Shown here piece by piece: positions 9,528-48,388 of a DNA stretch of 64,000 bases; the first letter of the stretch is position 1; each line of letters starts with the position of its first letter. Origin of the DNA: a virus. Below the pieces are notes generated by a model. That model was not told where the DNA came from. It saw only the letters and a program-made list of their open reading frames with translations, and ran no database searches. The stretch covers positions 1 through 64,000 of the IMG/VR virus record IMGVR_UViG_3300020165_000007; one strand, 5' to 3'. A program made the position numbers and the translations under genes.

Positions 9528-11711
9528 TTACGAGACGGTTCCACCTCTTAGGAATACATCATTTGAAGTGTTGTTTATCTGCATCCCAGAGGCCGCCCAT
9601 GTTGAATACAGTCTATACTCTGTGTTCGTATATACTGTACCTGTGTAGTCAAGTAATCTATCATATAAAGTATTACTAGTATTAAAAGTGGTTCCGTATG
9701 AACTAGAAGTGCCATACTCTATTTGTGTAACTCTATTACTTGAACCACCTAAGGTGTTCTGTGGTACCGCAACTATATACCATGCACTTTCACTTACAGT
9801 TCCATCAGGTACTTCAAATTCATCAAATAAGTTTTGTCTAGGTCCTGATTGAGGAACCGTTGATGTGTATACCTGTGGTAATCCGGTAACTCCCGAAGTA
9901 GCATACATTTCCATCCATGTGAGTAATGAATCGTTTGTTGTTGCTGCGAATCCAGCGTTAAATCCGAAGAAATCAGGGAAAGAAATTCCTTGACCATTTA
10001 AATAACCTGATATGTCGCTACTCTTGGATGCAGGCTCGATAAATAGAAGTGCGGGTCCTAAGGCAGCCGCACTAGGTGTTATACTTGGTGTCACTGTTGC
10101 TGATGGTGTTATAGTCGGCGTTGCCGTGATTGATGGCGTTGCCGTGATTGATGGCGTTGCCGTGATTGATGGCGTTGCCGTGATTGATGGCGTTGCCGTG
10201 ATTGATGGCGTTGCGGTAATTGATGGAGTTGCGGTAATTGATGGAGTTGCGGTGATTGATGGAGTTATCGATGGTGTTGCAGTTATCGATGGTGTGGCTG
10301 TTATTGACGGTGTAGCTGTTATTGACGGAGTTGCGGTGATTGATGGAGTTGCAGTTATTGATGGTGTTACTGAAGGAGTCGCGGTTATTGACGGAGTGGC
10401 TGTTATTGATGGTGTTGCGGTGACTGATGGTGTTGCAGTTATCGATGGTGTTGCAGTTATCGATGGAGTTACTGATGGTGTTGCAGTTATCGATGGTGTT
10501 GCAGTTATCGATGGTGTGGCTGTTATTGACGGTGTAGCTGTTATTGACGGAGTTGCGGTGATTGATGGAGTTGCAGTTATTGATGGAGTTGCGGTGATTG
10601 ATGGTGTTACTGAAGGAGTCGCGGTTATCGATGGTGTTGCAGTTATCGATGGTGTTGCAGTTATCGATGGTGTTGCAGTTATCGATGGAGTTACTGATGG
10701 TGTTGCAGTTATCGATGGTGTTGCAGTTATCGATGGTGTTGCAGTTATCGATGGTGTTGCAGTTATCGATGGTGTGGCTGTTATTGACGGTGTAGCAGTT
10801 ATTGACGGAGTTGCGGTGATTGATGGAGTTGCAGTTATTGACGGAGTTGCGGTGATTGATGGAGTTGCAGTTATTGATGGAGTTGCGGTGATTGATGGTG
10901 TTGCAGTTATCGATGGTGTTGCAGTTATCGATGGAGTGGCCGTTATCGATGGTGTTGCTGTTATCGATGGTGTTGCGGTTATCGATGGAGTTGCGGTGAT
11001 TGATGGAGTTGCAGTTATTGATGGTGTTGCGGTTATCGATGGCGTTGCAGTTATAGACGGTGTTGCCGTTATCGATGGTGTTGCGGTTATCGATGGAGTT
11101 ACCGATGAAGTAGGTGTAGGAGACTCTCCTGGTGTTACTGAAGGAGTCGCGGTTATCGATGGAGTTGCAGTTATCGATGGTGTTGCAGTTATCGATGGTG
11201 TTGCTGTTATCGATGGTGTTGCGGTTATCGATGGAGTTGCAGTTATCGATGGTGTGGCTGTTATTGACGGTGTAGCAGTTATTGACGGAGTTGCGGTGAT
11301 TGATGGAGTTGCCGTTATCGATGGTGTTGCAGTTATCGATGGTGTTGCGGTTATCGATGGAGTTACCGATGAAGTAGGTGTAGGAGACTCTCCTGGTGTT
11401 GCTGTTATCGATGGAGTGGCCGTTATCGATGGAGTGGCCGTTATCGATGGAGTTGCTGTTATTGATGGAGTTGGTGTTGGTGATACACCAATATTAACGG
11501 TAGTGGTAGTACCACTGCACGGTCCCGCATCACTAACAACTATATACACACTATTAGTGTCGTCATCTAAAAAAGTAATTCCGTTTACTAACTGGTTTCT
11601 AGTCACTCCAGTTATAAAGTTTGCGGGAATCTGTGAAGTGTGGTATATATCCAAGGTCGATATGTCCACACCCACACTTGTACCGCTTAATGTTACTTCT
11701 CTTTGCGCCAT
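9528..11711 (-). CDS. Pro/Ser/Thr-linker adhesin-like tail protein (727 aa)
   Basis: Residues 1-80 form a small beta domain (MAQREVTLSGTSVGVDIS...). Residues about 80-560 are tandem PSITAT hexapeptides, broken twice by PGESPTPTSSVT. The C-terminal ~165 residues (ALGPALLFIEPASKSSD...) form a globular domain rich in Tyr, Ser and Thr. Pro-Thr-Ser stretches of this kind are extended, often O-glycosylated stalks in surface proteins; here they probably hold a C-terminal binding domain away from the virion. A copy of the 14-bp AT motif lies 17 bases before the start. The long open frame on the opposite strand over the tract is a repeat artefact. Confidence 0.65.
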   Translation of the reverse strand: MAQREVTLSGTSVGVDISTLDIYHTSQIPANFITGVTRNQLVNGITFLDDDTNSVYIVVSDAGPCSGTTTTVNIGVSPTPTPSITATPSITATPSITATPSITATPGESPTPTSSVTPSITATPSITATPSITATPSITATPSITATPSITATPSITATPSITATPSITATPSITATPSITATPSITATPSVTPGESPTPTSSVTPSITATPSITATPSITATPSITATPSITATPSITATPSITATPSITATPSITATPSITATPSITATPSITATPSITATPSITATPSITATPSITATPSITATPSITATPSITATPSITATPSITATPSITATPSVTPSITATPSITATPSITATPSITATPSVTPSITATPSITATPSITATPSITATPSITATPSITATPSITATPSVTPSITATPSITATPSVTATPSITATPSITATPSVTPSITATPSITATPSITATPSITATPSITATPSITPSITATPSITATPSITATPSITATPSITATPSITATPSITATPSITATPTITPSATVTPSITPSAAALGPALLFIEPASKSSDISGYLNGQGISFPDFFGFNAGFAATTNDSLLTWMEMYATSGVTGLPQVYTSTVPQSGPRQNLFDEFEVPDGTVSESAWYIVAVPQNTLGGSSNRVTQIEYGTSSSYGTTFNTSNTLYDRLLDYTGTVYTNTEYRLYSTWAASGMQINNTSNDVFLRGGTVS
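10100..11495 (-). repeat. 18-bp tandem repeats (PSITAT)
   Basis: About 1.4 kb of 18-bp units with synonymous changes. Blocks of several units recur almost unchanged, for example the block ending in the GVGDSP-like antisense motif near 11105 and again near 11370. This suggests duplication by recombination. Confidence 0.9.
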
Positions 11712-11727
11712 CCTTAAACCTTTTTAT

Positions 11728-11741
11728 TTTTTATATAAATA
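11728..11741 (-). promoter_or_regulatory. 14-bp AT motif, copy 2
   Basis: Same 14-mer as at 4988, here 16 bases before the ATG at 11711. The 80-base gap around it contains only a weak 5-bp inverted repeat (GTGGT/ACCAC) and no convincing terminator. Confidence 0.45.
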
Positions 11742-11791
11742 GTGGTTAGTTTTAATTTGTACCACATTATTTTACCTATAAAAATATTTTT

Positions 11792-22291: not shown

Positions 22292-23679
22292 GACGGATTT
22301 ACATATTCATACCAGTTTATTGGTGTTACCGTACCGACCCTGTTTTGAGTGTTCATATTAATAACATCATATTCATAATTTTCGTAATCAATATTAACTT
22401 GGTAGTAAAAATACTTAGAACTTTCAAAATTAAACTTCTGAGATAATGCAGACTGTCGAGTATTCATCATCCTAACAAATTGTCCAGTTTTAGCGTTAAA
22501 AAACTTAGCACTCATATAAAACTTATCTATATCGATATAATTCGGATTTTTTAACCAATAAATAAAGTATCCTTCTTTATCACCAACATAATCCAATAAA
22601 AAATTAGGCATCTTTATCTGCGAATCAGAAGGTGCCACCGCAGTAGACGCAGTATTAGGAGGTAAATTTCCTGCATTATTGTTTATTTCCCCACCACTTC
22701 CAGGTGGTTGGAATGATGCTGATGGTGTTGGTGATGGGGGTGTTGGTGTAGGTGTAGGCGTTGAACTGATTGATGGTGTTGGAGTCATCGACGGGTTTAT
22801 ACAATCGCAATTTCCAAGCGTAAAATCACTAAAATCATCTATTATATCATTAGGGGGTGCGTCCGGTATAATATCATCACCTATACTAATTATTTCAAAA
22901 CATGTTCCCTGATAATCTATTGTATAATTATTTTGAGGCCATGATAAAAGTTCATTAACGATTTGAACATCAATATATTTAGTTAACGAAACGCTATTAC
23001 AGTTTAAAAATGTCGTCTCATAAGTATCGGGAAAAAACAATATTACATCATTAATTTTTGATGTAGATGGTGTAGGTGTAGGTGTGGGCACATAGTAAAG
23101 TGGGGCCGCAAGACCAAAATCTCCACCACCTGGTAATATGTCTGGAATTGTTGGTCCCGAAACATATGGGTTAGATATCGGAGGTTCCGTTCCGGATAAT
23201 CTAGTTAATCCTTGTTGTGTAGGTAATATAATGGTTAAATAAAGTTTTTGTGTCTCACTATTGTCAGTATCATATAAATCTAACTTAAAGAAACTATTTT
23301 TATATGAGTTAGCATTATAATATATCTCACCCTCAGTAAAGCAAGTTCCTGTGAAATTTGGGTTATCGGTAAACACATAGTCACTTGTCCATAAATTGAC
23401 GTTAGATGGATTAGTTGCTCCTACATCAATACTTCTATCGAAAAAACTAAATTTGTGGTTAATACTAGTCTGTAATATATTATCTTTGTACCAATCTTTG
23501 TGAGTAAATCTTGTTAACTCAAAGTCTTCAATAGGATTTATTACTTTTTCTAAAGTCTCTTCTTCAAACTTATCCACCAAATCATCTCTACCTAATAAAT
23601 CGGTATCAATTTGAATGGGTATGTTTATATACCTATCGTTAGGTGATATTTTAATTCTATATTTATTCACAGTAGTCAT
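22288..23679 (-). CDS. structural protein with Pro-Thr linkers and one Cys module (463 aa)
   Basis: Residues ~1-200 form a soluble domain (MTTVNKYRIKISPNDRYINI...). Two proline-threonine linkers (VPTPTPTPSTS and PTPSISSTPTPTPTPPSPTP) flank one module, FLNC...GTCFEI...LGNCDC, related to the Cys modules of the 14697-17363 gene. A C-terminal ~130-residue domain (LPNFLLDYVGDKEGY-like, with FYMSAKFFNAKTGQF) follows. It overlaps the preceding gene by 17 bases. It looks like a baseplate arm that uses the same linker and module kit as the fibre genes downstream. Confidence 0.55.
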   Translation of the reverse strand: MTTVNKYRIKISPNDRYINIPIQIDTDLLGRDDLVDKFEEETLEKVINPIEDFELTRFTHKDWYKDNILQTSINHKFSFFDRSIDVGATNPSNVNLWTSDYVFTDNPNFTGTCFTEGEIYYNANSYKNSFFKLDLYDTDNSETQKLYLTIILPTQQGLTRLSGTEPPISNPYVSGPTIPDILPGGGDFGLAAPLYYVPTPTPTPSTSKINDVILFFPDTYETTFLNCNSVSLTKYIDVQIVNELLSWPQNNYTIDYQGTCFEIISIGDDIIPDAPPNDIIDDFSDFTLGNCDCINPSMTPTPSISSTPTPTPTPPSPTPSASFQPPGSGGEINNNAGNLPPNTASTAVAPSDSQIKMPNFLLDYVGDKEGYFIYWLKNPNYIDIDKFYMSAKFFNAKTGQFVRMMNTRQSALSQKFNFESSKYFYYQVNIDYENYEYDVINMNTQNRVGTVTPINWYEYVNPS

Positions 23680-25375
23680 TTATTGGGGCGAATGAAATAT
23701 TACTATTGTTAATATTTCTCTTCATAGGAGTTAGTAAAAATAGTATCTCACTAAATGGGTAGTGACATCCATTTAAAAAAGGATTATCTAAACCATTACC
23801 GTCACTGTCTTTATATCCATATGGGTATAAATCTCTCCATCTCCATTGTTTTTCATATTTAGATAAAAAAGCGTAATCCGGAACTAAATCAACTGAATTT
23901 TCATCTCCAAGTTCAATATAGTCCGAATACACTCTTATGGGTACTGAATAATGTGGATTAAAAGCATATCCAGAAGGTAACGTATTAATACTGTTATTAT
24001 CAAATACTTGTGGGTTATACGATATCTTGTGACTTATGTTAGACAATACAACTTCTTTTTGATTATACTTATTAAACTCACATATACCACCCATTAATTT
24101 ATGACCAATTTCTAAATTTTCATTATAATGAAATGTATTTCCATTTTTAACGTAACTTCCGTTTGGTATGTCGTCTCTATTAGATGTGTTGTTTATATCC
24201 CACCACTCGTCTATTTCATCTTCTAAAAAGTTTAATTCCCATCCGACCTGCACTCCCGTATTATTATTACTTACGTAAGGGTTATTAAACCAACCCATAT
24301 AACCTTTATTTAGAATAGTTACAAACAATTCAGTTATAGGTCTATCTAAATTATCCCTAAGTGAAGATATATCTATATCTTTATCAAAAGAAAACCCTAC
24401 TGTAGTATTACCATCTTTAATTGAAACTCTCTGCACATTATTTGGTGTTAATGCCGAATACTCCAATTGTTTTTTAACGGGAAAAGGGTTAGTTTCATAT
24501 GCCAACTTAGTAATATCAGCATGAGTATTTTTAGTTAAAACTTTATGACACCTAACATAATATTCTGAGGTAGTCTCTTCTTTATTATTTATATCTGTAA
24601 CTTTTTTAAAATTACCTGTAGCGTAGTTACCAAAAAGTGGGTCAGTAAATCCATAATTAAATATAGAAAAAACTTTTTCCTGATTTCCGTAGTACAAATC
24701 ACCTATTTCATAAACTTCAAAATATCGTTTACCATTTATTTCGTCTTTAGTGTAAATCCAATCACCAAGAGATAAGTTATGTTTAAATCCACAATAAAAC
24801 GTAATAAGATTTTTCCCCCTGTCTTGTGTGTTAAGTATATAATACGGTACCCCTTCACTAACTACAAAATTATTTACCGAAGTTCCACTTTCAAAGTTTA
24901 CAGTCTGTCTTAAATTTTGGTCTGTTTTATTTTCAGATGCATATGTGACATACGAAACCCAATTATATGACGAAGCGCTTTTATTTATAAATGGTATGTG
25001 ACCTTCAATACCTCTAGTCCTAAAAAAAGTAAATTCGTCATATTGAGGATATCCTTTCCATTCACCTCCAAAAGTGAGAGTATTTAAAGTATCTGTATAG
25101 TATAGAGAGTTTCTAAATGGTTCGTAACTTGTTTGACCGCTAACAATATTATTAAATATATTAACTATCTTTCCAGCAATTCTAAATTTACTTGAATTTT
25201 GTCTTTCGTAGTTAAACCTTTCTTCTAAATTAAGTATTTTAGACCTTTCACCCTCTATAATATTTTTATTATTTCCTTGTAAATTTACATTTATTAATAA
25301 ATCAGTATTAGACGCACCGGCAAAACGGTCCTCTCCTCTAACAATTCTAATATCTGAATTTTTCTTATTACTCAT
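23663..25375 (-). CDS. baseplate protein, unknown (570 aa), gp8 position
   Basis: No named family is recognised. The sequence is soluble and Asn/Tyr/Phe-rich, with several Gly-Trp and Tyr-Tyr patches typical of baseplate subunits. It overlaps the end of the 1684-aa gene by 8 bases. In T4 the order is 6-7-8-9-10; here it is gp6-like, then a 1684-aa protein, then this one, so it occupies the place of wedge protein gp8. That is position only, not sequence similarity. Confidence 0.5.
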   Translation of the reverse strand: MSNKKNSDIRIVRGEDRFAGASNTDLLINVNLQGNNKNIIEGERSKILNLEERFNYERQNSSKFRIAGKIVNIFNNIVSGQTSYEPFRNSLYYTDTLNTLTFGGEWKGYPQYDEFTFFRTRGIEGHIPFINKSASSYNWVSYVTYASENKTDQNLRQTVNFESGTSVNNFVVSEGVPYYILNTQDRGKNLITFYCGFKHNLSLGDWIYTKDEINGKRYFEVYEIGDLYYGNQEKVFSIFNYGFTDPLFGNYATGNFKKVTDINNKEETTSEYYVRCHKVLTKNTHADITKLAYETNPFPVKKQLEYSALTPNNVQRVSIKDGNTTVGFSFDKDIDISSLRDNLDRPITELFVTILNKGYMGWFNNPYVSNNNTGVQVGWELNFLEDEIDEWWDINNTSNRDDIPNGSYVKNGNTFHYNENLEIGHKLMGGICEFNKYNQKEVVLSNISHKISYNPQVFDNNSINTLPSGYAFNPHYSVPIRVYSDYIELGDENSVDLVPDYAFLSKYEKQWRWRDLYPYGYKDSDGNGLDNPFLNGCHYPFSEILFLLTPMKRNINNSNISFAPINDYCE

Positions 25376-28300
25376 CTTGAGCGAAAATGTATTTTTTTAT
25401 GTATCTATTCATCGCACTTTTACCCCTTTTAAGACCAAAATAATAGTAAAAGGGTCCACCTACTTTAAAGTTACCACCATTCACATCATTCGTAGGGTAT
25501 GAGTCGTATTCAGGGTCTGTCGAGCTTCTGTTATAAATATAACCAAGACCATATCCTGAATTAGGTTTCATATATGTACTATTGTTATTATAAAAATCAT
25601 CTCCTTGGTATTTAGAGTTGAATATATATTCAGTATTCCATGAGTTATGTTGGGTCCCAAATAATCCATTGTCATTTACGTTCCACATATAATACGGAAC
25701 TACTTGGGTATTCGAATATCCAAATGTATTTGTCGGACCTGTCGGTTCGGTTCCAAATGTAGTCACTCCATTCGTAATAACTCTCCTATTAATTGTATTC
25801 GAACTAAACCAAATACCAAATCTATCATCTATTAAAGAAATACTATCTTCATAATTACCTTCTAAAAATGGTATAACACCATACTCAGAGTTAATACCTA
25901 CCATTTGAGCGTAGTCCCCATCAACCCGACTGTCAAGTGGATTTGAGAGCCCTAAAATCTGAGTCTCTCTTGAGAAAAGCATTCCCACAGAACCGTCTCC
26001 AGCACCTAACACTTGTTCCAAAAAGTTGGCGTTCGCCAAACGGGAGACTATAAATAAAATATCAATATTAGATGGGTCGTTATAACTTGTAGTTTCTATT
26101 GTATCAATTATATAACCTTCAAATTCAGGTGAAAACGCAATCTCTTTTGTGAACTCATCTCTTGGTCCTAACTCATTAATAGTTGTTGGGTACCAAATGT
26201 TTTTATCATTTTGACCGGAGTAATAATCCCTACCTGGCTCCTGACCTATAAATTGATTCGTATCATCATTAAAAGGTGTCGAACGATAAAAGAATGAGTT
26301 TGTTTCGGTATTAAAATATAATGGTCCTTGGTACCTTCTATTGACCCAAAATTGTTGGGGGTCACCACAGAAACGATACCGTTTAGGTTGATTATCTGAA
26401 TTATATATGGTTTGTTTTTGAAATGAGGGCATATATAGAGACCCATTTAACCAGTTATTTTGAAACATTTGCCCAATAACTCCCTGGCATAGTGCAAACA
26501 TAAATCTTATCCTTACTCTCCATTCAAAAAACATTTGTATGTCTCTAGGAATTGTAAGTATTAATCTTCTAATCACGAAACGGTAACATCCGTTAACAAC
26601 TCTTTCATCACTATCAATAGGTCCAGGTAGGTCACATGGGTTAACAACTTCAAATTCCTCACCCTGTCCTTGATAACAGTTTAAAGGTACCATACCTTGA
26701 CATCCGAAACTTTGTATTACTTCCGATGTTACTGAATTTGCGTCTTCTGAAGCGTCGGCAGCATTGCCAGTGTCGTCCGATGAAGTCACCACTTCTCCCT
26801 CTATATTTGTTACCGTACCCTCTTCATCTAAAAAGAATAACTGTTGTCTTAGATTTAAATGTAATCCATACCTTCTAAATTCAGGTTCGTTATTGTTATA
26901 TTCAAACCTATCAAATTGGTCTCCTGTTGGTATTCTATCCGACCTAAACACTAACCTGTTGACATTAGACATATTAGTAATTACCTGTTGGTCTGATAAA
27001 TTTCTAGAGAGGTATAGTGGAGATACCGTAATGATTTTCGTATCGTCAGTATTTTTTAAGTTCCTTTTATCATTATTTTTATCTGAGTATTGATACCCGC
27101 AACCTTCTATTCCTCTTTGAAACCATGGGTCCATACCTTTGTTGGGGTATCCACTACCTGGTCCGTCAGGACAATTTACCCCATTACCATCAACACCCAT
27201 ATAATTTTTGTAACGGTTATCATTAACTAATTGTTTATCTAAAGAAACGTATTTGTTAAAACATTCGGTAGAAAAGGATTGGTAATTTTCCCCGCTATTA
27301 CCAAAATTAGCAGTATAAGATGGGTGATATAACGCTTTGGCACTAAATCCGTCTCCACCATATCCATAGTTATTAGTGTCTTCGAACTTAAGGTCATCAC
27401 CCACCCACTTAAAGTGAGGTACTGGGGTTTTATTCGAATTTCTCCAAATACCGTCTTGGGTTGCGGTATTTTCACCTGTTAATACATTGGGTTGTATCGG
27501 TATATTTAAGTAGTATTCTCCTTCTACAGTTACTTCATTAGCCCAATCATCAAACTCACCCGAACTAGTCTCATATCCAAATAGTTTAGATAAATCATAT
27601 TTCATCTTTTGCTTTGGACTATATGGGTCAACTCCTCTTGTTGCAAATACAATAACTAAATCATTTTCGTTAGTATTACCCTGTTTATAGAAGTGACTTA
27701 CCGTCGCTAAGTTATGGGCATCTCCATCAGTTTGGTCATTTTCCTCACATTGGTAACCCACCTTATAATCTAAGAGATACCTCCTAAGTAATCCGTTAGT
27801 GGTTCCAGTAGTTATAGAGTTAACCTCAGACCTAGTCATACCTGTTATAACTTGGAAGTACTCTACTCCCGCCTTATATTTATAACTTGTAGTTGCACCA
27901 GTATTTACTATAGTGACTCCCTGTGCAGTACTTGCGACACCATTAGGTTTCAAATATTTTATATCTATAGTAGTGTAACCATTTTCATTATAATTTATGG
28001 AATTACCCGTAAGACCATTATTATTAAACTGATTACCGCTAGGGTAACGATTAACGTTAGGGTCTGAAATGGTAGACGGGTCATTAAAGGTAAATAACTG
28101 TCCTGGTATTACTACACTACCTGGGTCCAATACCATAATAAAACAACTGTCTGTCCATGGCGTAGATGCGTTATATCCAAAGTGGTCGTTTACTGTCCTA
28201 ACAAGCATTCTGTTAGTTGTTGATGGACCGAAGTTTTGGTTACCGTTATCTCCGAAGTACATATGTCTTCGGTTCATAAGATTTAAAGCTTGAGCCCATG

Positions 28301-30422
28301 TTGGGTTAGGTGAAAATCTCCATCTAGTTTTGCTCGGAGGTTCATTTGGCCCGTCTTTATATATGGGATATACAGGTGATTTATACCATTCGGGTTGGTC
28401 CCTTTCTCCATCTTTATCAGTTTCTAGTTTTATTTGGTTTTTATAAAATCCAGGACCACTGTTACTGTCATATCCACTACTTAAAAATCTACCAGTCCAT
28501 GGAGACATAATGGTTGGTGTAGATGTTCCGTCAACATTCGCATTACACGCGTTTACCTGATAAGACTCACTCCAAGTAATATCCGCAATTGGTCCAAATG
28601 TTAGCTCATCCGCTAAGTCATTTAACTCTTGACTATCTTCTTCTGAAACACTATCAGAACTACAATTACAAGTCTCACAATCAGGATAACTAATCATAGG
28701 TAGTGAAATGTTTTTAAATGGATTTTCTTTAGGTAGTGGTTCGATTAATGCACTTTTACAATCTTCCCTACTTAGTCTCCTTGAGAAAATGGATATGATA
28801 ACACACATCACATATATAATTCCATTTATAATTGCTATTATAATATTTAGTATGGCCCTTACTATCGGATATAAAACAGCCAAAACATGCATTAAAATTA
28901 TTAACGAAATAAATGAAGGAACTAAAATAGTGATAAGATAATTAAATAAAAGTATAAAAAAGTTACCGTTTCTTTGTGCGTCATTTATGGGTGGTTTATT
29001 AATTTCTGACTGACACGTTTTATCGTTAATCTCTTTTATCCCAAGATGTTTTATTCTATTAAACCCCCATTTAAATCTGTCAATATGAGACGCAACTGTA
29101 TAAACTTTATTAAAATTAAACTCATAAAAACTATCATCACAATTAATAGCCGCGTTCTTATCGTAGTAATCATCCCAATTCAAAGAAAATGAATACGATT
29201 TATTCCATGTCTCTTCATCAGGTCTATCGTTAACGGTCGTTCCTGTCCATCCATGTTCTTTTATGTTGGGAATTAAGTAGTTCGCTCTTATTATTTCCCC
29301 GTCTAATCCCGACTCATTTTGCCATTTTATTTTAAATCTACTTTTACTTTTAGTAGGGATTCCGATAGATGGGTCTATTGATATAATTTGTTCCCCGAAT
29401 TCATTAGTTATTACATAGTCTAAATTCATCGGAAGGTCAATTAACCACGTACCGTTATCGTCAATTATATTACCACCTTCTTCAAAAATAAATTGTTCTA
29501 AAATAGGATTACCTGAAAAATCGACATCCGTTGTTTGTCTTATACATAGTATTTGACCCGGACCTGTAGATAAATCACATAATTTACCTGTATCATTTTT
29601 AGGTTTACAATTCCCTTTTAAATAATCCTCATCAGTACTACTAAATATGGAGCCCATAAAAACTGCCTGTGGTTGTATTTCAATACCTAAATCTCTTAAA
29701 TCGAAATCACTTCTAGTAATCCCAACATCACATAAATCATTTTCACCCCAAAATGGTGTGACATCCACTTCTTGTACGCTATTGACTATTTGTGGTAAAC
29801 TTTTTAAATCTTGTGAAGCTTTAAATTGTTGTCCATTAAACTGTGTCGGAACTCCCATCCCCATCCTTATTAAGTCAGAGGGTCGTAATGAGAATTGACC
29901 TATATTAGATAGGTCTAAGTCCATAACTAACTTTTGTTGACCCAATGGTACCCCGACTATCATAAAGTCTCCTGAGTTGTTTGTTTTTACTGTGTACTTG
30001 TAATATTTCTCGTAAACGTGTAAAACTTCTTTTCGAGTTAAAACATCTTCTCGGTCAGGAAAAGTACCCGTAGGTGTATGACCTCCATACTCTTTTACGT
30101 ATGGTAAAAGATTATATCTATACCCATCTTCATTTTTTGTCTGTATATTTTTATAAGGGTAAAGAGTAGATATAATATTATCATTTTGGTCAATATCATC
30201 TAATGGTACAAATATAGAAATATTTACATTAGGTACTCCAAATCCACCATTAGCAATCACTCGTCCAGTTACAACTCCATAATCCGCACAAAATCTTTCA
30301 TATAAATCTTCTTGTCGTAATTTTAACGATAAGATTTCCAAAAAATCAAAATCTTGCTCTATATTAAGACGTACTTCCCTGTCGACCCCAACTTTTGTTC
30401 TAAACCTATATGACTTTGACAT
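25368..30422 (-). CDS. very large baseplate protein with internal membrane segments (1684 aa), gp7 position
   Basis: The N-terminal ~180 residues contain two carboxypeptidase-regulatory-like beta motifs (GVVTGRVIANGGFGVPNVNI; NSGDFMIVGVPLG). Around residues 485-545 there is a 60-residue run of almost only hydrophobic residues (FFILLFNYLITILVP... to ...VMCVIISIF), enough for two to three membrane helices. It is followed by SRRLSRED and a Cys cluster (CETCNC). The long C-terminal part is soluble and aromatic-rich. It follows gp6 where T4 has wedge protein gp7, but is far longer than T4 gp7 and I see no clear similarity. A membrane segment inside a baseplate protein suggests insertion into the host membrane at infection; this is inference. 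Upstream, the minus strand contains TATAAATA, the T4 late-promoter core, about 30 bases before the start. Confidence 0.6.
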   Translation of the reverse strand: MSKSYRFRTKVGVDREVRLNIEQDFDFLEILSLKLRQEDLYERFCADYGVVTGRVIANGGFGVPNVNISIFVPLDDIDQNDNIISTLYPYKNIQTKNEDGYRYNLLPYVKEYGGHTPTGTFPDREDVLTRKEVLHVYEKYYKYTVKTNNSGDFMIVGVPLGQQKLVMDLDLSNIGQFSLRPSDLIRMGMGVPTQFNGQQFKASQDLKSLPQIVNSVQEVDVTPFWGENDLCDVGITRSDFDLRDLGIEIQPQAVFMGSIFSSTDEDYLKGNCKPKNDTGKLCDLSTGPGQILCIRQTTDVDFSGNPILEQFIFEEGGNIIDDNGTWLIDLPMNLDYVITNEFGEQIISIDPSIGIPTKSKSRFKIKWQNESGLDGEIIRANYLIPNIKEHGWTGTTVNDRPDEETWNKSYSFSLNWDDYYDKNAAINCDDSFYEFNFNKVYTVASHIDRFKWGFNRIKHLGIKEINDKTCQSEINKPPINDAQRNGNFFILLFNYLITILVPSFISLIILMHVLAVLYPIVRAILNIIIAIINGIIYVMCVIISIFSRRLSREDCKSALIEPLPKENPFKNISLPMISYPDCETCNCSSDSVSEEDSQELNDLADELTFGPIADITWSESYQVNACNANVDGTSTPTIMSPWTGRFLSSGYDSNSGPGFYKNQIKLETDKDGERDQPEWYKSPVYPIYKDGPNEPPSKTRWRFSPNPTWAQALNLMNRRHMYFGDNGNQNFGPSTTNRMLVRTVNDHFGYNASTPWTDSCFIMVLDPGSVVIPGQLFTFNDPSTISDPNVNRYPSGNQFNNNGLTGNSINYNENGYTTIDIKYLKPNGVASTAQGVTIVNTGATTSYKYKAGVEYFQVITGMTRSEVNSITTGTTNGLLRRYLLDYKVGYQCEENDQTDGDAHNLATVSHFYKQGNTNENDLVIVFATRGVDPYSPKQKMKYDLSKLFGYETSSGEFDDWANEVTVEGEYYLNIPIQPNVLTGENTATQDGIWRNSNKTPVPHFKWVGDDLKFEDTNNYGYGGDGFSAKALYHPSYTANFGNSGENYQSFSTECFNKYVSLDKQLVNDNRYKNYMGVDGNGVNCPDGPGSGYPNKGMDPWFQRGIEGCGYQYSDKNNDKRNLKNTDDTKIITVSPLYLSRNLSDQQVITNMSNVNRLVFRSDRIPTGDQFDRFEYNNNEPEFRRYGLHLNLRQQLFFLDEEGTVTNIEGEVVTSSDDTGNAADASEDANSVTSEVIQSFGCQGMVPLNCYQGQGEEFEVVNPCDLPGPIDSDERVVNGCYRFVIRRLILTIPRDIQMFFEWRVRIRFMFALCQGVIGQMFQNNWLNGSLYMPSFQKQTIYNSDNQPKRYRFCGDPQQFWVNRRYQGPLYFNTETNSFFYRSTPFNDDTNQFIGQEPGRDYYSGQNDKNIWYPTTINELGPRDEFTKEIAFSPEFEGYIIDTIETTSYNDPSNIDILFIVSRLANANFLEQVLGAGDGSVGMLFSRETQILGLSNPLDSRVDGDYAQMVGINSEYGVIPFLEGNYEDSISLIDDRFGIWFSSNTINRRVITNGVTTFGTEPTGPTNTFGYSNTQVVPYYMWNVNDNGLFGTQHNSWNTEYIFNSKYQGDDFYNNNSTYMKPNSGYGLGYIYNRSSTDPEYDSYPTNDVNGGNFKVGGPFYYYFGLKRGKSAMNRYIKKYIFAQDE

Positions 30423-30495: not shown

Positions 30496-32334
30496 TTATG
30501 AGAAATCTACGTTCTTCAATTGTTTTATTCTAACTTTGATATCTTTTTCAGGAAACTTTACCTGATATATCTGATTTGGTTGTGCAAAAATAGTATCATC
30601 AATTAATTCAATTTGTTTAGTGTTTTTGTCCAAATATCTTTGTGAAGTTTCTGAAGACGAATATTGACCCCCAGTTTTATTAAAAACTTTTAAATCCGCC
30701 AATGTACTAACTCCAGGAATATCTTGTATTAATCTCCTTATGTCGGATATATTTATGTTCTTACCTAATAGATTAGTCGATGGTGACATATATGAATTAA
30801 CACTATCAACTATACTCGTTATTACTTGTCCTTGATTTTCACTAGATTCCATTGACACTGAAAATACAAATTCTAAATCAATTACTTGAGCACTTCTTAC
30901 TGAAATATAATCATTAATCATCCTGTAATTAGATAAATAATTTGCAATATTTTGTTTTAATGTATTTGATACGTTACTAGTTAACTTACCATTATCATCA
31001 AATGATAATATTTCTATTTTAATCTTATTATCCTCTTCCGTTATAGACGCCTTAGCCGGCGCTCCAAACCTACTCGGCATAGTTCTAATTAAAGAATTAT
31101 AATCATTTACCGTAACGGCCCTTTTTTGTGCCGCAAAATTATAGGTAACCATATTACGCACTTCCTCAGTAGTAGGTAAGTTACCCCCACCTATCGCTGC
31201 GGTTACATTATTAGACCTTAAACTTTGAATTACATTCTGATTAATGTTAGGTGATGGTCCGTTAACCGAAAAATTAATGGTTCCGATTTGGTTGATTGTG
31301 TTTACCCCGATGTTAGAACCTATCCCACCCCCTATTCTATATTTAACAAATAGTGTAGTATTAGCCTTAACAGTTCTACCTAACCCAATATTGTTTTGAT
31401 AATTTTCAAGCCTAAGCGGTATTCCTGTTTTTGCAAATTGAGCTAACTGGTCGTCAGCAGTAACTGTAGCGGAACCGAAAGTTAATTTACAATAACCCTC
31501 AGGTGTATATTCAGAAATAAATCTACTTTCAGTTTCAATATAACGACCCACTTTTATCCCTGGATTATCTGAAGCCTTTGTGGGGTCTTCAACAAATACT
31601 GTATTTTCTGCCAACGCATCTACCTCATACCATCTATCAGGTGCAGTTATAAATTCACCATAAGTAGGTGGGCTTGAGTAAGTAATACCATCTTTCTGAA
31701 TTAATGATGTTATACTTATAACGTTTTTTTCAGGTAAGAAGAACTCATAAAATGGTTTAACATCATTATTATTAATTACTTTTTTAAATATTTTAGTGGT
31801 ACCATTAACAACAACCTCTCGTTTAGTTATAGTATAATTAATAATTCGATTATTACTATCAAAATTCGGTATTTTAGTTCTGTTAGGGAATCCACTACTA
31901 TTATATTGAGTACTAAAGTCGATATCGTCTTGGTTTTCAAATATTTGACCCGCACCTATAAACTGAGAACCTGACCTTATAATACCTAAATACCTACTGT
32001 CTTCTTGGTCTCCAAAAGCTGGAACAGTAATAGACACATCTAATAACGCAATAGAAGGTCTATTACCAGGTATTTTTAATCCATATGTTCTAGCGATATT
32101 ATATATTGAAGATTTTTGTTGAGCGTATTGTAATACAGTTTCTTGTATACTTCTGTCTATATGATAATTTAAGTTGTCTCCAATAGCCGCGTTTAAATCT
32201 AAAAATACTGAGAATACGGAAGCGTCATTAAAATTATCAATGAGGTCCGGATAATACTGTCTTGTAAAGTTTATAAGGTCTTGTCTTAAACCTTCAAAAT
32301 CTCTTTCCGTATATGATATTTTACGATTAGCCAT
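30496..32334 (-). CDS. 6: baseplate wedge protein, T4 gp6-like (612 aa)
   Basis: It starts MANRKISYTERDFEGLRQDL and has the N-terminal helix typical of gp6/baseplate J proteins (FTRQYYPDLIDNFNDASVFSV...). The central part carries the AAQKRAVTVNDYNSLI motif, where the ring-forming domain begins, followed by the gp6 C-terminal region (IRRLIQDIPGV). Length is close to T4 gp6 (660 aa). The gene lies 5 bases after gp25, the T4-like wedge partner. It should form the inner ring of the baseplate that triggers sheath contraction. The family call is firm. Confidence 0.88.
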   Translation of the reverse strand: MANRKISYTERDFEGLRQDLINFTRQYYPDLIDNFNDASVFSVFLDLNAAIGDNLNYHIDRSIQETVLQYAQQKSSIYNIARTYGLKIPGNRPSIALLDVSITVPAFGDQEDSRYLGIIRSGSQFIGAGQIFENQDDIDFSTQYNSSGFPNRTKIPNFDSNNRIINYTITKREVVVNGTTKIFKKVINNNDVKPFYEFFLPEKNVISITSLIQKDGITYSSPPTYGEFITAPDRWYEVDALAENTVFVEDPTKASDNPGIKVGRYIETESRFISEYTPEGYCKLTFGSATVTADDQLAQFAKTGIPLRLENYQNNIGLGRTVKANTTLFVKYRIGGGIGSNIGVNTINQIGTINFSVNGPSPNINQNVIQSLRSNNVTAAIGGGNLPTTEEVRNMVTYNFAAQKRAVTVNDYNSLIRTMPSRFGAPAKASITEEDNKIKIEILSFDDNGKLTSNVSNTLKQNIANYLSNYRMINDYISVRSAQVIDLEFVFSVSMESSENQGQVITSIVDSVNSYMSPSTNLLGKNINISDIRRLIQDIPGVSTLADLKVFNKTGGQYSSSETSQRYLDKNTKQIELIDDTIFAQPNQIYQVKFPEKDIKVRIKQLKNVDFS

Positions 32335-32339
32335 ATAAT

Positions 32340-32819
32340 TTAAATATTAATTATTATAAAATCTCTACTTTCAAATGTAGTATCTTTAATAGAATAGTCT
32401 ATTTTTACTTTCGCAGTATATTCATCTACCCCTTCACCTGCAGTTCTAAAAATGTCAAACATTTCATATTCAGAATTTTCGTCTTCGGTATTTAGAGTAC
32501 CCGAAACATTCCTATCATCTTCACTATAAGGGGATATAGATATGTCATTAATCTGTAAATTAGGTATGTATTTATCAACTGATGTTTGTATATCTGATTT
32601 TATTGCATCAAATGTTGGTCCGTCCATTGGTTCAAAAATAAACTCATATATCCTAGTTCCAAAGTCAGGTAAGTAATATCTACTACCTTTCCTTGTTAAT
32701 ATTAAATGTAATAAATCCGTCCTTATCTCATCTTCGGCAGTTTTTGTCCGAGTGAGATAGTTACCATTAACACTTTCAGAAAATGGAAATTTTATACCAT
32801 ATGATTTATTTATTGCCAT
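32340..32819 (-). CDS. 25: baseplate wedge protein, gp25/GPW family (159 aa)
   Basis: The family signature is clear: a ...TRKGSRYYLPDFGTRIYEFIFEP segment (residues ~42-64) with the invariant R-x-G-x-R-x-x-x-P-x-FG. Length fits T4 gp25 (132 aa) with a small extension. gp25 joins sheath to wedge and nucleates the sheath. The gene starts just after a terminator hairpin that closes the ribonucleotide reductase unit, so it opens the late baseplate operon gp25-gp6-1684 aa and onwards. Confidence 0.88.
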   Translation of the reverse strand: MAINKSYGIKFPFSESVNGNYLTRTKTAEDEIRTDLLHLILTRKGSRYYLPDFGTRIYEFIFEPMDGPTFDAIKSDIQTSVDKYIPNLQINDISISPYSEDDRNVSGTLNTEDENSEYEMFDIFRTAGEGVDEYTAKVKIDYSIKDTTFESRDFIIINI

Positions 32820-41773: not shown

Positions 41774-44700
41774 TCAAATATCCCCCCTAGAAACTACCGA
41801 TGTAAAAATATCAAGCCATTCTTGATACTCATCTTTGTATTGAGTATTACCATTTATTTTAGTTTTTATAATGGCAATAATCTGTTGTGGAGTCCCTTGT
41901 ATTGGCTCAATCTCATATATTTGAGCTAAATATAAATACGCTAAAGCCTTAGGTGTTGTATTAGTCGTTTGAGTTTGTTGAAGTTCATTATCCATCGCCT
42001 CAAGTATTGAACCCAGTGGGTTAAATGTAGCTCTCATAAAATCGAGCGAATCTTTAATACTTGAAAATGAAGCGATAGGAAATGTTTGTTCGTTAACAAT
42101 AATACAAGTTTGAGAGTTGAAATATTGCGTCCTTTGTGTTGGTTTTATTTCTCTACTTGTAACCAAATCCATTAAATTATTATTATACACATTTTGCCTA
42201 ACTGGTAGGTTATGAGTAGCAATTCCATATATGAAAAATTTTAATTTATTGTTTGTGAATTGGTTGTTATTTACGTATTCTTTTACTTCTTGTCCATTAA
42301 CAGTAGTTGGTGTCATATCAACAAATGTCTTATCACTATATTTAGTTAGTGATTTACATTTTTCTTCAGGGACTTGACTAACATTTTTGGATTCAGATAA
42401 TGCAATTGTATTATTTGTTTTTCCTGATGGGTTATTAACTTCAATAGACCTTAACTTCTTTTGATATAGGCCTAACAATTCTCTGTTTACACTGGCAACC
42501 AATTTATCTGGTTTTGGGAATGAGTATTTAGGCATTCTTACCCCTTCAAAATTAGTCGTGAATCCCCTCGTACTTATACTATGATTAACATTCATTATAT
42601 AATATGGACCGTAAAACATAGGTACATTTGTTAGGTTAAAGTACATAGTCGGTTGTATCATAACATTACCTAAAGACTGTACCTGACATGTATAACTTCT
42701 AGATTTATAAAAATTATAAAGTGATTGAGTTTGTTGTGCAACCTTTTGACCTGACGCCTGCGCACCTAATTGTTCTAAGACCCCAAATGTCGGTCCAATA
42801 TTTTTATGTTGATTCATGTCAATAGATACTGAGTTAAATACTCCTTGGTTTCTTTTACCAAAGTCTACTTGAAACCCAACACATCTATTACTATCCGAAT
42901 AATTATCTTTATTTTGTTGATTTTCTCTCAATGGACAGTCTGACGGGTTAGTAATATCAAATGAGTCATTACCTTTCCTAATATTTTTATTTTGTTCCAT
43001 ACCTAAATTTTCTGATGGAGGTCCCATCCATATCCCTAACATTTTTGGTCTACTGTTTCTCGCATCGACCTCCATGAATGTTCCAAACAAATCATTCGGT
43101 ATATCTTGTGGGAAAGGTTCCCCTTTTTTTACTCTATCATCTCTACCATAAAAGTTTGTATATGCCGGTGTTGGCATAAAAACAAAATTATTTTTTTCAT
43201 ATATTGTCCCAAGTAAAGAATATACGGTAGTTTTATCATTTCTACCTCTTAAATACCCCTCAAGTTCTTTAATATTTATCACAATTTTATCCCCTATAGG
43301 TCTGTTGGCCCGGTCTAAAAATAAAAAATCTTCAAATATAGTTCTAGTTTTAAAATCTTGTCCAGACACCCACTTATCATTTAGTAGTTGGAACGATTTC
43401 CATAACTCTAACTTAGGTACATTTCCATCAATTTTTGAAATTCTAAGCGCGTCATCCGTGACCGAAACAGAGGGTAATTGTCTGTTTAGTTTAATAAAAA
43501 TATTATTTAATATATTCTGTTGGAATTTTTCCTTACCTATAAGTGCGTCATTTAAATCTTTTATGAATTTACTCTTATTGTATGTGTTGTCTTGTGATTT
43601 TTTAGCTGCGTATATTTTTATTAGGGATGATAAGTTTACAACGTTACTTTCGTTGAATTCGTAATCCATGTCTACGAAAAAATCTGTTAAATACGAACCA
43701 TTATCAGAGTATTTAAATCCGACCTCACTAAACTCTCCCACATTTAGATACATAGAGTTCCATGCGTCTGTGTAATTTCCCCTACTTTCACCTAAAGTAG
43801 TACTTCCACTTTGTGTTGGTAAACTGTTAGGGATGTATGTTTTAAAGTCATAAGGGTCCTTAATCATTTGATTACTGACTGTGGTTATTGAGCCGTAAAC
43901 TTTATTGTCATATTTTCCCGGATTTCCTATTTTTAATACAACTTCACGATATAACGCCTTTTCAATATGATAATTTAAAAAAGTAGTTAATTGCCCGTCA
44001 CTTATATTCTTAAGGTCTTCATCTATGTTATTGGTTATTGTTGGCTTATCGATGATAAATAGTGACTTCATAACCGTAGATAAATTTATATTGTATCCGT
44101 TAACGTTTAATCCGTTAAATGTAGATGGTATGTTGTTATATATCCTTTCTAATTCTAGTATCCTTTCATTATCTATTTCGACAGGACCCATACTTAATTC
44201 TACAAACTTTTCAAATGTAGTTTCACCTCTATTTACCTTATTAATGTTATATTTAGTATCTACTTCACAAAAGTTTAAGAAGTAAGACTCAAAATTATCC
44301 AACATTTCTTTTGTGAATACTCCAAATATATCGTCTATAGATGAGTATTGTAAAGTATCTGAATTACTTATATTAAACGGTTGAGTGTTTTTATTTTCGG
44401 GGTCTATATTTTTAATGTACTGTAATGGTGTTGGTTTATTTACCATTTCATTAGAAAAATACCCGAAGTTAGATGACGCCCAAAAAGACCTGACACTTCC
44501 ATTATAAATAGAATTATTAGTTGTTAAATTCTGTTTATATTTACCCTGATTATTAAAACATTCAAACTCCGCTTGATTAAATTTAACATCACCAAAAGAC
44601 GGTATAATTAATATCTTATCTTCTTGGTTTTCTCTAAAATCATAATTTCCTTTTATGTTAAAGTACTGTGACCAACTGTTCATATTGTATTGACCCCTCG

Positions 44701-47700
44701 TATCTCCGCTAGATATTATTTTATCTATACTTCCATTATCTGAATTACCTATTTTTAAATTTTTCTCAGTTTGTGCGGTTTGTATTTCATCTGAAGTGTA
44801 AGACGTAAAAATATCTTTTTTAGTGAAGTAGTAATATAGTTCGTTTATTACCTTTGGATAAAATCCATTTTCTACTTTCTTAGTGACGTATGGGTATGTT
44901 ATATTTAACACCTCATTAGGTATAGGGGAAATATCTTCCACTATAGTTCCGCTCACCTCCTCTAATTGTTTTATTGTAACGTTATTCCCACCATAATCTT
45001 CAAAAGTGTATGACTTAGATGTATCTCCTCCAATAGGGTCATACGCAAATTTATAGTCAAAGTCTTTCCATACATCATCTAAAATGTCGACACCACTCTC
45101 TTTATATTCTTTATATCTATGCCATATGGAACCATATTTTAATATCCAATAATAAGGGACTTTATGTACTGAAGAAAATTTATTTAATGTTGCAAAAATA
45201 TAGTTTAAATCTGTAGTGACATTATTATTGTATGATTTAAATTTTTCTTTTAATGTTGTTAGAGGTAAGGAATTTAAATATAGATACCCTAAAGCCACGT
45301 ATGGATTTTCTATTTCATTTTTTTCATTTTCAACTCCTTTAAGAATTGCGTTAGTAAAATAAGGCGTATTTAATAATGACGTGGTTTGAGTTTTAGTTAT
45401 AAAGTTTTTGGTAGTATCGTAATTATTACCGTATTCTAAAGTAGATTCTGTAATTATAAATTTTTCTTTTGTTCTATTATTATAATAGTTAATTACTTGA
45501 TTATTAGTCTCAAATATATTTTCACTGTTACTGTTTGGATTTGGATTAATTTCCGAAACTTCTTGGTTAGGTGAGGTAGACGTGTTTGTTATCCATTCAA
45601 AATATGAAAACATTTTTTTATCATATGTTTCGTCCTCATTAGAAAACGAAGCTATTGTCTTTTGGTCCTCGTTAAATGAAAACATTTTAGAAGTGTCGTT
45701 ACTAATTCTTATAGAATTGACTTTACTCCCTTCCGATAGATTGTTTTGTAACCAAGTAAGGTTATTAAATGGATAACCATCCGTAAATGTTAACTCGTCT
45801 GATTGATTTGAGTTAAGATATTTTATCAGTTTATCACTACTCTCACTAGACGAGGATACCCTAATCGAATTACCCTCTAAATATGAAAGTTTATAAACCC
45901 CAAAATCTTGATTTATTAAAGACTTAATATATGGGGTAGTAAAATCACCCCTGTTAAATAAATTCCAACTCTGACCCTGTCCGTTATTAGAAATACTTCT
46001 CATGTATTTTAATAAGTTTTCGTAACTGAATGAAAAGTTTTTTAATAGTTCAATTAATTCAGGAGATTTTACTACCGATTCTTGTAAATTAATGTATTCA
46101 AAATCACTGAAAACACTATACAATTCATTATTATAACCACTTTCTCTATATAATTTAGTGTAGTTAGAATTTAAAAAAGTTCTTTCAAATAATTCGTAAA
46201 AAAATGAAACAATCCTTAAATCATTATATGGCTGTCCTTGAAATGGGAACTCAATGGCGTTACAACTAATAAATGGGTTTTCTTTAAGTTCGTTGGGATA
46301 GTTAAAACCTAATGTTTGATTTTCAATCTGTACCGACCCTTTAACAAACTCTTCAACAAACTGTATTTCAGGCCACACACTATATTTCCACCCTTGTACT
46401 TTATTAACTTCCGACGAGTCGCCAGGATATTTGTCTTCATATAGCTCGTTACCATCCTCATCTATAGAGGTTACAAAATATTGAGGCCACGGGTATATTG
46501 TTGGTGAATCTTCTTTTTCAGTTCCGTAAGCACTTAACCCATTTAATAAGGCGTTTACCATAGTTGTCTCTGTTCCTTCCGATTTTTCGGGTGACATAAT
46601 GGCACCAACTCTAATGGGGTCTTTTCTTTTATCCCAAGCATCATCGTGAACTTTATCCATTAACCTTAAAAATCCGTCTGCGGATGCACATATCACAGCC
46701 ATAACGTTATTTATTGTAGGGTTAAATCCTAAACCAACATCAGGAGACTTTATTTTTTCGGCTAAAGCATAAGAAATTGTTTCTTCAACTTGTTGTTTTT
46801 TAGTTTCAAAATTATCTTGTAATTCTTCTAATTTTCTTAAAAAACTATTTTTAGTTAAATTGTTAGAATTATTTTGGTCTCCAAATACAATATACTGATT
46901 TAATAAAGAATCTTCTTCGACTGTCAATGTTTCCGCGTTAACAACTGTAGGTGGCACCGCAAGTTCCTTTATAATCACATTATTTTTAAAGTCGGATAAC
47001 TCTAACTCAGTAGGCGTCCCTTTGTATCTTAACTCATATGTATTATTATAATCCACTTCCGATTCTGTCGGTTTTTGTTTCTTAAAGTCAGATATCTTAA
47101 TATCACAATTTAATGAAGTCTCTATTTTTTTTCCATTCACTTTCACACTCCCATTAGTACCAAAAACAGGATTTTCATTAAGTATGGTATTGTATTTTTT
47201 AATTATACTTTCTAAGTTTGAGATTGAGTCTTTTCTTTTTTGTAGTTTTTCGTTTTTTCCTCCGTTATTTTTTATGGGATATAATATAGGTGAGTTTGGT
47301 GTTCTGTCTATTAAACCTAACCTGTTACTAATGTTTTCACTAAACCAATTATCCGTAAATAACCCATATATTTGATTCCTATATTCTGTAATCGTGTTTG
47401 AGTATTTTTGAATTTCAGTTAGTGGAGACATATCTTCCTTACCATAGGCCTCCATAACATACCTTTCAAAATTTTGTAGTTTCATTAACATTTGATTAAT
47501 TGTTAACTCTGGAAAATTATCTTCTATGAGTCCTTTGGCTTTGTAAGCGGAGTAGACCTCTTTAATTGTGTCGTAACCTTTTGTGGATTTTATTTGACGT
47601 AATTCTTGTGTATCCAAACCTGGTTGACTACTAGTCTTATTAGTTCCTATTGTTGTAGTCCTACTGTACATATGTGGTAATGCAAATAACGCCTCTATTG

Positions 47701-48388
47701 GAATGTCCGATAACATTGCATATGTTCGACTTATAAAATTGGTACTGATTTTATAGTTACCTGAAGATGGTTCAAATCTAGCGTTAAAATCTTTTAACAT
47801 TAACTCATACCTAATAGCCTTACCATAGTATCCTTTAAGTGTTAATGTAAATAATGGATATGGGAACTGAAAGAATGCACTATACGGTGAGTTTTCTCCT
47901 TGTTCAAATAGAACTCTTCCTTGCACATCCTCCATTTCAATACTAACTATAGCAGCAAAAGACGCATTAACTTTAACTGAAATATTAGTAATTCCTAACA
48001 TTTGACTGTCAGCGTCCCCACCTCTATTTTGACCTAAAGTTAAATTATCAGTCCATGAGGTATCTAAGTAATCGTCTTGCGTTTGAGATTGACCATTATT
48101 AACGGTCTGAGGTTTCATAAAATTTATAACAGTAGACTTATCTTGGTCTAACGCCCCTATTCGTATATTTTCAATAGTATCCTGAAAATTACTACCCACA
48201 ACTAATTTACTTCTAGGTATAACTTTAGTCTCTAAATTAGCGTACATAACTAACTCTTCTTGGTTGATTAACCGTTCAGATACTGTACCATCACTATCAA
48301 CAACTTTATTTGGGTCTATAATTATTATGTTGTCATAGTCTGTTTCTACATATACGTCTTGATTGTTAAAAAATTTGTTACCTGCCAT
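41774..48388 (-). CDS. giant tail/baseplate hub candidate (2204 aa)
   Basis: The longest gene in the window. The N-terminal ~250 residues have a conserved-looking core (SVKVNASFAAIVSIEMEDVQ...GYYGKAIRYELMLKDFNARF). A long middle part rich in Asn, Tyr and Phe follows. Near the C-terminus there is GNVMIQPTMYFNLTNVPMFYG...YIMNVNHSI...GFTTNFEGVRMPKY, a layout that resembles the last beta-barrel of phage hub proteins (gp27/gpD type). It overlaps the gp53-like gene by 11 bases. Because the tape measure, OmpA-domain protein and gp53-like protein precede it, a hub or central-spike role is likely. No lysozyme motif was seen. Confidence 0.55.
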   Translation of the reverse strand: MAGNKFFNNQDVYVETDYDNIIIIDPNKVVDSDGTVSERLINQEELVMYANLETKVIPRSKLVVGSNFQDTIENIRIGALDQDKSTVINFMKPQTVNNGQSQTQDDYLDTSWTDNLTLGQNRGGDADSQMLGITNISVKVNASFAAIVSIEMEDVQGRVLFEQGENSPYSAFFQFPYPLFTLTLKGYYGKAIRYELMLKDFNARFEPSSGNYKISTNFISRTYAMLSDIPIEALFALPHMYSRTTTIGTNKTSSQPGLDTQELRQIKSTKGYDTIKEVYSAYKAKGLIEDNFPELTINQMLMKLQNFERYVMEAYGKEDMSPLTEIQKYSNTITEYRNQIYGLFTDNWFSENISNRLGLIDRTPNSPILYPIKNNGGKNEKLQKRKDSISNLESIIKKYNTILNENPVFGTNGSVKVNGKKIETSLNCDIKISDFKKQKPTESEVDYNNTYELRYKGTPTELELSDFKNNVIIKELAVPPTVVNAETLTVEEDSLLNQYIVFGDQNNSNNLTKNSFLRKLEELQDNFETKKQQVEETISYALAEKIKSPDVGLGFNPTINNVMAVICASADGFLRLMDKVHDDAWDKRKDPIRVGAIMSPEKSEGTETTMVNALLNGLSAYGTEKEDSPTIYPWPQYFVTSIDEDGNELYEDKYPGDSSEVNKVQGWKYSVWPEIQFVEEFVKGSVQIENQTLGFNYPNELKENPFISCNAIEFPFQGQPYNDLRIVSFFYELFERTFLNSNYTKLYRESGYNNELYSVFSDFEYINLQESVVKSPELIELLKNFSFSYENLLKYMRSISNNGQGQSWNLFNRGDFTTPYIKSLINQDFGVYKLSYLEGNSIRVSSSSESSDKLIKYLNSNQSDELTFTDGYPFNNLTWLQNNLSEGSKVNSIRISNDTSKMFSFNEDQKTIASFSNEDETYDKKMFSYFEWITNTSTSPNQEVSEINPNPNSNSENIFETNNQVINYYNNRTKEKFIITESTLEYGNNYDTTKNFITKTQTTSLLNTPYFTNAILKGVENEKNEIENPYVALGYLYLNSLPLTTLKEKFKSYNNNVTTDLNYIFATLNKFSSVHKVPYYWILKYGSIWHRYKEYKESGVDILDDVWKDFDYKFAYDPIGGDTSKSYTFEDYGGNNVTIKQLEEVSGTIVEDISPIPNEVLNITYPYVTKKVENGFYPKVINELYYYFTKKDIFTSYTSDEIQTAQTEKNLKIGNSDNGSIDKIISSGDTRGQYNMNSWSQYFNIKGNYDFRENQEDKILIIPSFGDVKFNQAEFECFNNQGKYKQNLTTNNSIYNGSVRSFWASSNFGYFSNEMVNKPTPLQYIKNIDPENKNTQPFNISNSDTLQYSSIDDIFGVFTKEMLDNFESYFLNFCEVDTKYNINKVNRGETTFEKFVELSMGPVEIDNERILELERIYNNIPSTFNGLNVNGYNINLSTVMKSLFIIDKPTITNNIDEDLKNISDGQLTTFLNYHIEKALYREVVLKIGNPGKYDNKVYGSITTVSNQMIKDPYDFKTYIPNSLPTQSGSTTLGESRGNYTDAWNSMYLNVGEFSEVGFKYSDNGSYLTDFFVDMDYEFNESNVVNLSSLIKIYAAKKSQDNTYNKSKFIKDLNDALIGKEKFQQNILNNIFIKLNRQLPSVSVTDDALRISKIDGNVPKLELWKSFQLLNDKWVSGQDFKTRTIFEDFLFLDRANRPIGDKIVINIKELEGYLRGRNDKTTVYSLLGTIYEKNNFVFMPTPAYTNFYGRDDRVKKGEPFPQDIPNDLFGTFMEVDARNSRPKMLGIWMGPPSENLGMEQNKNIRKGNDSFDITNPSDCPLRENQQNKDNYSDSNRCVGFQVDFGKRNQGVFNSVSIDMNQHKNIGPTFGVLEQLGAQASGQKVAQQTQSLYNFYKSRSYTCQVQSLGNVMIQPTMYFNLTNVPMFYGPYYIMNVNHSISTRGFTTNFEGVRMPKYSFPKPDKLVASVNRELLGLYQKKLRSIEVNNPSGKTNNTIALSESKNVSQVPEEKCKSLTKYSDKTFVDMTPTTVNGQEVKEYVNNNQFTNNKLKFFIYGIATHNLPVRQNVYNNNLMDLVTSREIKPTQRTQYFNSQTCIIVNEQTFPIASFSSIKDSLDFMRATFNPLGSILEAMDNELQQTQTTNTTPKALAYLYLAQIYEIEPIQGTPQQIIAIIKTKINGNTQYKDEYQEWLDIFTSVVSRGDI

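Follow-up and report, generated by a model that had tools for sequence, protein, structure and literature searches.

A conserved hydrophobic run in a large protein of a phage baseplate gene cluster

The stretch of DNA analysed here, called the window, is the initial 64 kb of a virus record of 270 kb. It encodes a 1684-aa protein directly behind a gp6-like baseplate wedge gene, and in nearly all relatives of this protein a hydrophobic run is found at the same place. We tentatively read the protein as a wedge component in which the run forms a hairpin, hidden in the virion, that would enter or grip the outer membrane upon attachment; we regard this as plausible, albeit somewhat short of probable. 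The coordinates of the features discussed are listed in Table 1.

The hydrophobic run and its gene neighbourhood

Hydrophobicity was unbroken across residues 486-550. Each 19-residue Kyte-Doolittle mean starting at residues 486 to 532 was at least 1.6, the best being 2.82, and the maximum in the rest of the protein was 1.42. On this scale the run was unique among the 33 large ORFs of the window, the nearest being an RNR-like gene with a weak 1.75, and no other tail protein of the window had such hydrophobic segments. The original prediction, which had placed a run of about 60 residues at 485-545 (28780-28970), was correct to within a few residues. It had also asked for a choice between two and three helices, and two are favoured for the 1684-aa member (496-517 and 527-546) when the run is segmented with a biological-scale insertion-energy score that is our own approximation and not a published predictor. 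Three helices were disfavoured for this member, and some relatives score as three. A 576-aa open frame of the window (10012-11742, +), antisense to a 727-aa gene at 9528-11711, is probably a composition effect.

Of 232 related loci, 230 had the gp6-like gene directly upstream, and the gene for the 570-aa protein was the next one downstream in 126 of 129; tube, sheath and gp53-like genes are also encoded in the window. It is by gene position, and by that alone, that the 1684-aa protein is supported as a baseplate protein. Of the earlier description as a large baseplate protein, the size and the location within a baseplate gene cluster therefore stand, and the baseplate identity carries this qualification. 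Tape measure proteins are long, mostly helical and encoded between the tube and hub genes, and the beta-rich N-terminal part and the position behind gp6 do not match this. Elsewhere in the window, only the C-terminal part of the 1061-aa tail sheath (58294-61479) matches sheath families well, so several hundred extra residues appear to decorate the sheath, and a 2204-aa protein of the baseplate region (41774-48388) is without family match.

Searches with the 1684-aa protein gave no Pfam or PHROGs family match (the best score, a non-significant 0.016, came from a "membrane protein" family aligned with the run), no tblastn match in 50,697 phage records, and nothing in a PDB sequence search. The genes behind gp6 in the two closest named phages, Flavobacterium phage immuto and Microcystis phage Mel-JY01, and in LR756508 contained neither a homolog nor a long run. 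One predicted homolog was present in BFVD (Myoviridae sp. ctPuP5, 37% identity). A distant homolog (L079:4404-8408) has C-terminal SprB adhesin repeats, the C-terminal part of the family varying by lineage, and when this relative was the tblastn query, the sole match, to adhesin repeats, was in an uncultured phage of 642 kb.

Table 1. Positions in the window of the 1684-aa protein, its parts and its neighbours
Feature	Position	Strand	Basis
1684-aa protein, gp7-position baseplate wedge candidate	25368..30422	-	ORF and gp6-like gene directly upstream
Highly conserved N-terminal part, aa 1-480, mostly beta by AlphaFold2	28983..30422	-	identity 0.56-0.85 per 40-aa block, 29 clusters
Invariant Cys470 before the run	29013..29015	-	33/33 sequences
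Hydrophobic run, aa 486-550, two predicted membrane-length helices	28773..28967	-	Kyte-Doolittle, relatives, AlphaFold2 helix
Helix 1, aa 487-518; His512 invariant, Asn494 nearly so	28869..28964	-	column counts
Helix 2, aa 521-548, with a family-wide amphipathic pattern	28779..28862	-	hydrophobicity period, permutation
Cys cluster YPDCETCNC, aa 579-587, behind the run	28662..28688	-	column counts
Conserved C-terminal part, aa 1240-1684 (NNWLNGSLY ... YYFGLKRGKSA)	25371..26705	-	conservation
gp6/Baseplate_J-like wedge subunit	30496..32334	-	phrog_219 3e-19, PF04865 8e-6
gp25-like wedge subunit	32340..32819	-	phrog_261 4e-18
570-aa protein, downstream in nearly all relatives	23663..25375	-	synteny

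Conservation of the run among relatives

At least 590 related stretches were found in IMG/VR, and 241 N-terminal homologs were read. Among the IMG/VR proteins of at least 720 aa, 203 of 205 relatives had a run at the corresponding place; since this set includes many near-copies, overlapping contigs and some contigs that were fetched twice, a count by clusters at 78% identity is fairer and gives 45 of 47. Judged by such recurrence at one place, the run is not a matter of chance. Its length ranged from 29 to about 100 aa (three larger spans consist of two separate runs each), and its identity was 0.3-0.4 over 29 clusters, versus the much higher values of the N-terminal part. A place that is kept while the sequence drifts and the length varies is as expected for lipid-facing segments.

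The run was missing only from L161 and from L157, the latter being a contig of a Candidatus Wolfebacteria MAG. In both, the N-terminal part is fused to a short C-terminal part, and short pieces matching aa 1240-1684 are present in L157 too. Three further members that had appeared run-less (L168, L235 and L022) do contain it, the apparent absence being a domain-end artefact. L157 and L161 form long deep branches between run-bearing clades, with an unresolved root that makes loss and gain indistinguishable, and they are the only two loci without a gp6-like gene directly upstream. The hydrophobic module is therefore separable from the protein fold, which does not strictly depend on it, and accompanies the gp25-gp6 gene arrangement. 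Relatives lacking the run had been named beforehand as one observation that would speak against a membrane role; two such relatives exist, and all others in the set keep it. The Wolfebacteria MAG contig was the single relative among the genome contigs scanned and is probably a phage contig, which argues that the family is not cellular.

Within the run, column counts over 33 sequences showed that His512 is invariant and that Asn494 is present in 30. Of the cysteines behind the run, C582 and C587 were found in 33/33 sequences and C585 in 32/33, and 179 of 203 relatives had, behind the run, a stretch of 12 aa with at least three Cys. The hydrophobicity of helix 2 had a period of 100 degrees over the family (p <=5e-5, permutation), and that of helix 1 was weaker (p = 0.002). 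The polar face of helix 2 consists of R522, N526, A530, N533, Y537, V541, S544 and R548, and in some relatives it has four or five Lys/Arg. A conserved face of this kind would be expected of a pore-lining or interface helix. Together, His512, Asn494, the amphipathic helix 2 and the Cys cluster point to selection.

The net charge behind the run was +1.3 on average, with no positive bias in front of it. Strongly hydrophobic segments that become exposed during translation are typical substrates for membrane insertion. The run resembles these, and, with the positive charge behind it, this would suit an assembly anchor: the hairpin would enter the host inner membrane during synthesis, baseplates would be built there, and the virion would be freed at lysis. 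However, a positive bias in front of the run is absent, a free virion would have to extract many helices from the membrane, and in T4 the wedge intermediates and free subunits remain soluble when a step is blocked (PMC3004832). We consider such anchoring improbable.

Predicted structure and comparison with T4 gp7

AlphaFold2 (33 aligned sequences; mean pLDDT 68) modeled residues 487-546 as a helix with a pLDDT of about 70-78, flanked by low-confidence linkers at 448-486 and 576-600. According to DSSP this is a single continuous helix across the run with no clear hairpin, so the hairpin itself is deduced from the length of the run. Co-variation gave no antiparallel hairpin signal among 52 effective sequences, which are too few, and both results count against a hairpin. 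The N-terminal part was beta-rich and gave only generic Ig/CnaB-like matches among PDB structures; gp7 was absent from the 50 best structure matches listed, with models of moderate and low confidence. The model of aa 585-1684 (pLDDT 51) was too poor for use.

In T4, the gene behind gp6 encodes gp7, the baseplate wedge initiator. Like the 1684-aa protein, T4 gp7 is very large, is encoded directly behind the gp6 wedge gene and has a conserved hydrophobic segment. An hhalign comparison of the family with gp7, taken alone or as a five-member profile, gave a probability of about 0.1%; without detectable homology, the protein is on sequence grounds best called a gp7-position protein and not a gp7. 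Public notes for gp7 of T4 (RefSeq) and of phage 44RR mention a C-terminal predicted integral membrane domain. The Kyte-Doolittle value of T4 gp7 is 2.07 at 886-904, and its stretch DVIRFVHPVGFGF..ITLLT...N.G is conserved as far as Vibrio phage V09 (33% identity). The single segment of T4 gp7 is ~30 aa long and lies towards the C-terminal end (residues 878-908 of 1032), whereas the run of the 1684-aa protein comprises ~65 aa at 486-550 of 1684 and is followed by the Cys cluster.

The premise of the original prediction, that baseplate proteins are soluble, was too strong in light of this T4 segment, which also makes a buried role a serious rival. T4 gp7 belongs to solved baseplates, and these contain no membrane, which counts against a membrane-entering hairpin. 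The helices of the run could likewise be a permanently buried core, packed together or against gp6- or gp8-like partners in the baseplate and never touching lipid, as may be true of the T4 segment in the same gene slot; such a packed interface would be in keeping with the amphipathic helix 2 and with the conserved residues His512 and Asn494. On the other hand, the run is twice as long as the T4 segment and nearly charge-free in many members, its length varies, and its identity is low for a packed core. We consider permanent burial possible but doubtful.

Proposed action at the outer membrane and related systems

A bS21 gene at record positions 117239-117394(+) runs in the opposite direction to the portal gene and the structural genes next to it, the arrangement seen in bS21-encoding Bacteroidetes myophages (PMC9723584). 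Together with PorP/SprF and TonB-dependent receptor genes, it makes a Bacteroidota host, with an outer membrane, very likely. The PorP/SprF gene (147458-148432, -) encodes a type IX secretion outer-membrane protein (Pfam 4e-45) with an apparent signal peptide, an unusual cargo for a phage, with possible effects on gliding or on the surface of the host. The TonB-dependent receptor (228082-230835, -) and an M43-type metalloprotease (168219-170234, -) have signal-peptide-like N-termini; all three genes are outside the window, at the record positions given.

For the outer-membrane hairpin, which among the readings considered is the most economical, we infer the following course. The 1684-aa protein would be a baseplate wedge component in the T4 gp7 gene slot, fixed into the baseplate of the virion by its conserved beta-rich N-terminal part and its conserved C-terminal part. 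Between both parts, flexible linkers would carry a hairpin of two helices, the first strongly hydrophobic and the second amphipathic. Invariant Cys are found on either side of this hairpin, which would be kept hidden in the resting virion. Rearrangement of the baseplate at the cell surface would expose the hairpins (six if there is one per wedge), which would then insert into the outer membrane of the Bacteroidota host and anchor the contracting tail and/or open the membrane for the tube. This course is favoured by the uniqueness of the run, His512 and Asn494, the amphipathic helix 2, the flanking linkers, the gp25-gp6-X-570aa synteny and precedents from other tail tips. The two run-less relatives and the lack of detectable homology to a known baseplate protein count against it, as does the fact that alpha-helical insertion into the outer membrane is unusual. 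As to the membrane hairpin predicted originally, a conserved two-helix module encoded in the baseplate gene cluster is thus present in nearly all relatives, albeit with those exceptions.

Guidance of DNA through the host inner membrane, as had been proposed originally, would have the hairpin move with the tube tip. The amphipathic helix 2 could line a channel, and such segments are absent from the other tail proteins of the window, but the gene position indicates a wedge protein, and a channel would better fit a hub or tape-measure protein. The T4 wedge remains at the cell surface. Moreover, a 651-aa protein encoded elsewhere in the genome is a better candidate for this role. We therefore consider an inner-membrane channel very unlikely for this protein, contact with the outer membrane being more plausible. 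The 651-aa protein (record 104754-106709, +) has three hydrophobic segments (421-534) and is another candidate for acting on a membrane at the tail tip; an adjoining 526-aa protein is gp5/OB-fold-like by eye.

Contractile phages are commonly said to pass the outer membrane by mechanical drilling at the baseplate. That the jumbo myophages of Bacteroidota in this widespread and uncultured family have a ring of deployable wedge hairpins gripping or perforating the outer membrane is rather unlikely in our estimate. If true, the baseplate itself would act on the outer membrane, something that has not been described for the wedges of contractile phages, and T4 gp7 may hold a smaller, overlooked counterpart.

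Membrane-active segments in phage tail tips are already known. In the phi29 tail knob, a hydrophobic loop of the soluble protein gp9 (the L-loop) exits, forms a helix barrel and penetrates the membrane (PMC6542822). A long hydrophobic run is present in the 1684-aa protein, whose place in the tail is suggested by gene position only; gp9 is a podophage knob protein that closes the tube end. The megatrons of RcGTA and roseophage R4C are baseplate proteins whose hydrophobic helices have been proposed to insert into the outer membrane (PMC7296036, PMC10276861); these helices are N-terminal and belong to a central hub trimer of siphophage-type tails, whereas the tail considered here is contractile and the gene is in the wedge slot. 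In Anabaena, a contractile injection system is anchored to thylakoids via transmembrane or amphipathic segments of the fibre-like Cis13 (PMC8894136), but this anchoring is on the producer side, and no transmembrane helix is predicted for the baseplate protein Cis12. The tape measure proteins of R4C and diffocin have membrane helices that are thought to be pore-forming (PMC10276861, PMC10996793); unlike the 1684-aa protein, they lie inside the tube and are not encoded behind gp6. What is new here is that so large a segment occupies the wedge slot of a contractile tail and that its family is unmatched in the 50,697 phage records, Pfam and PHROGs. Taken with the rarely discussed segment of T4 gp7, this wedge-slot module provides a testable case for wedges acting on a membrane.
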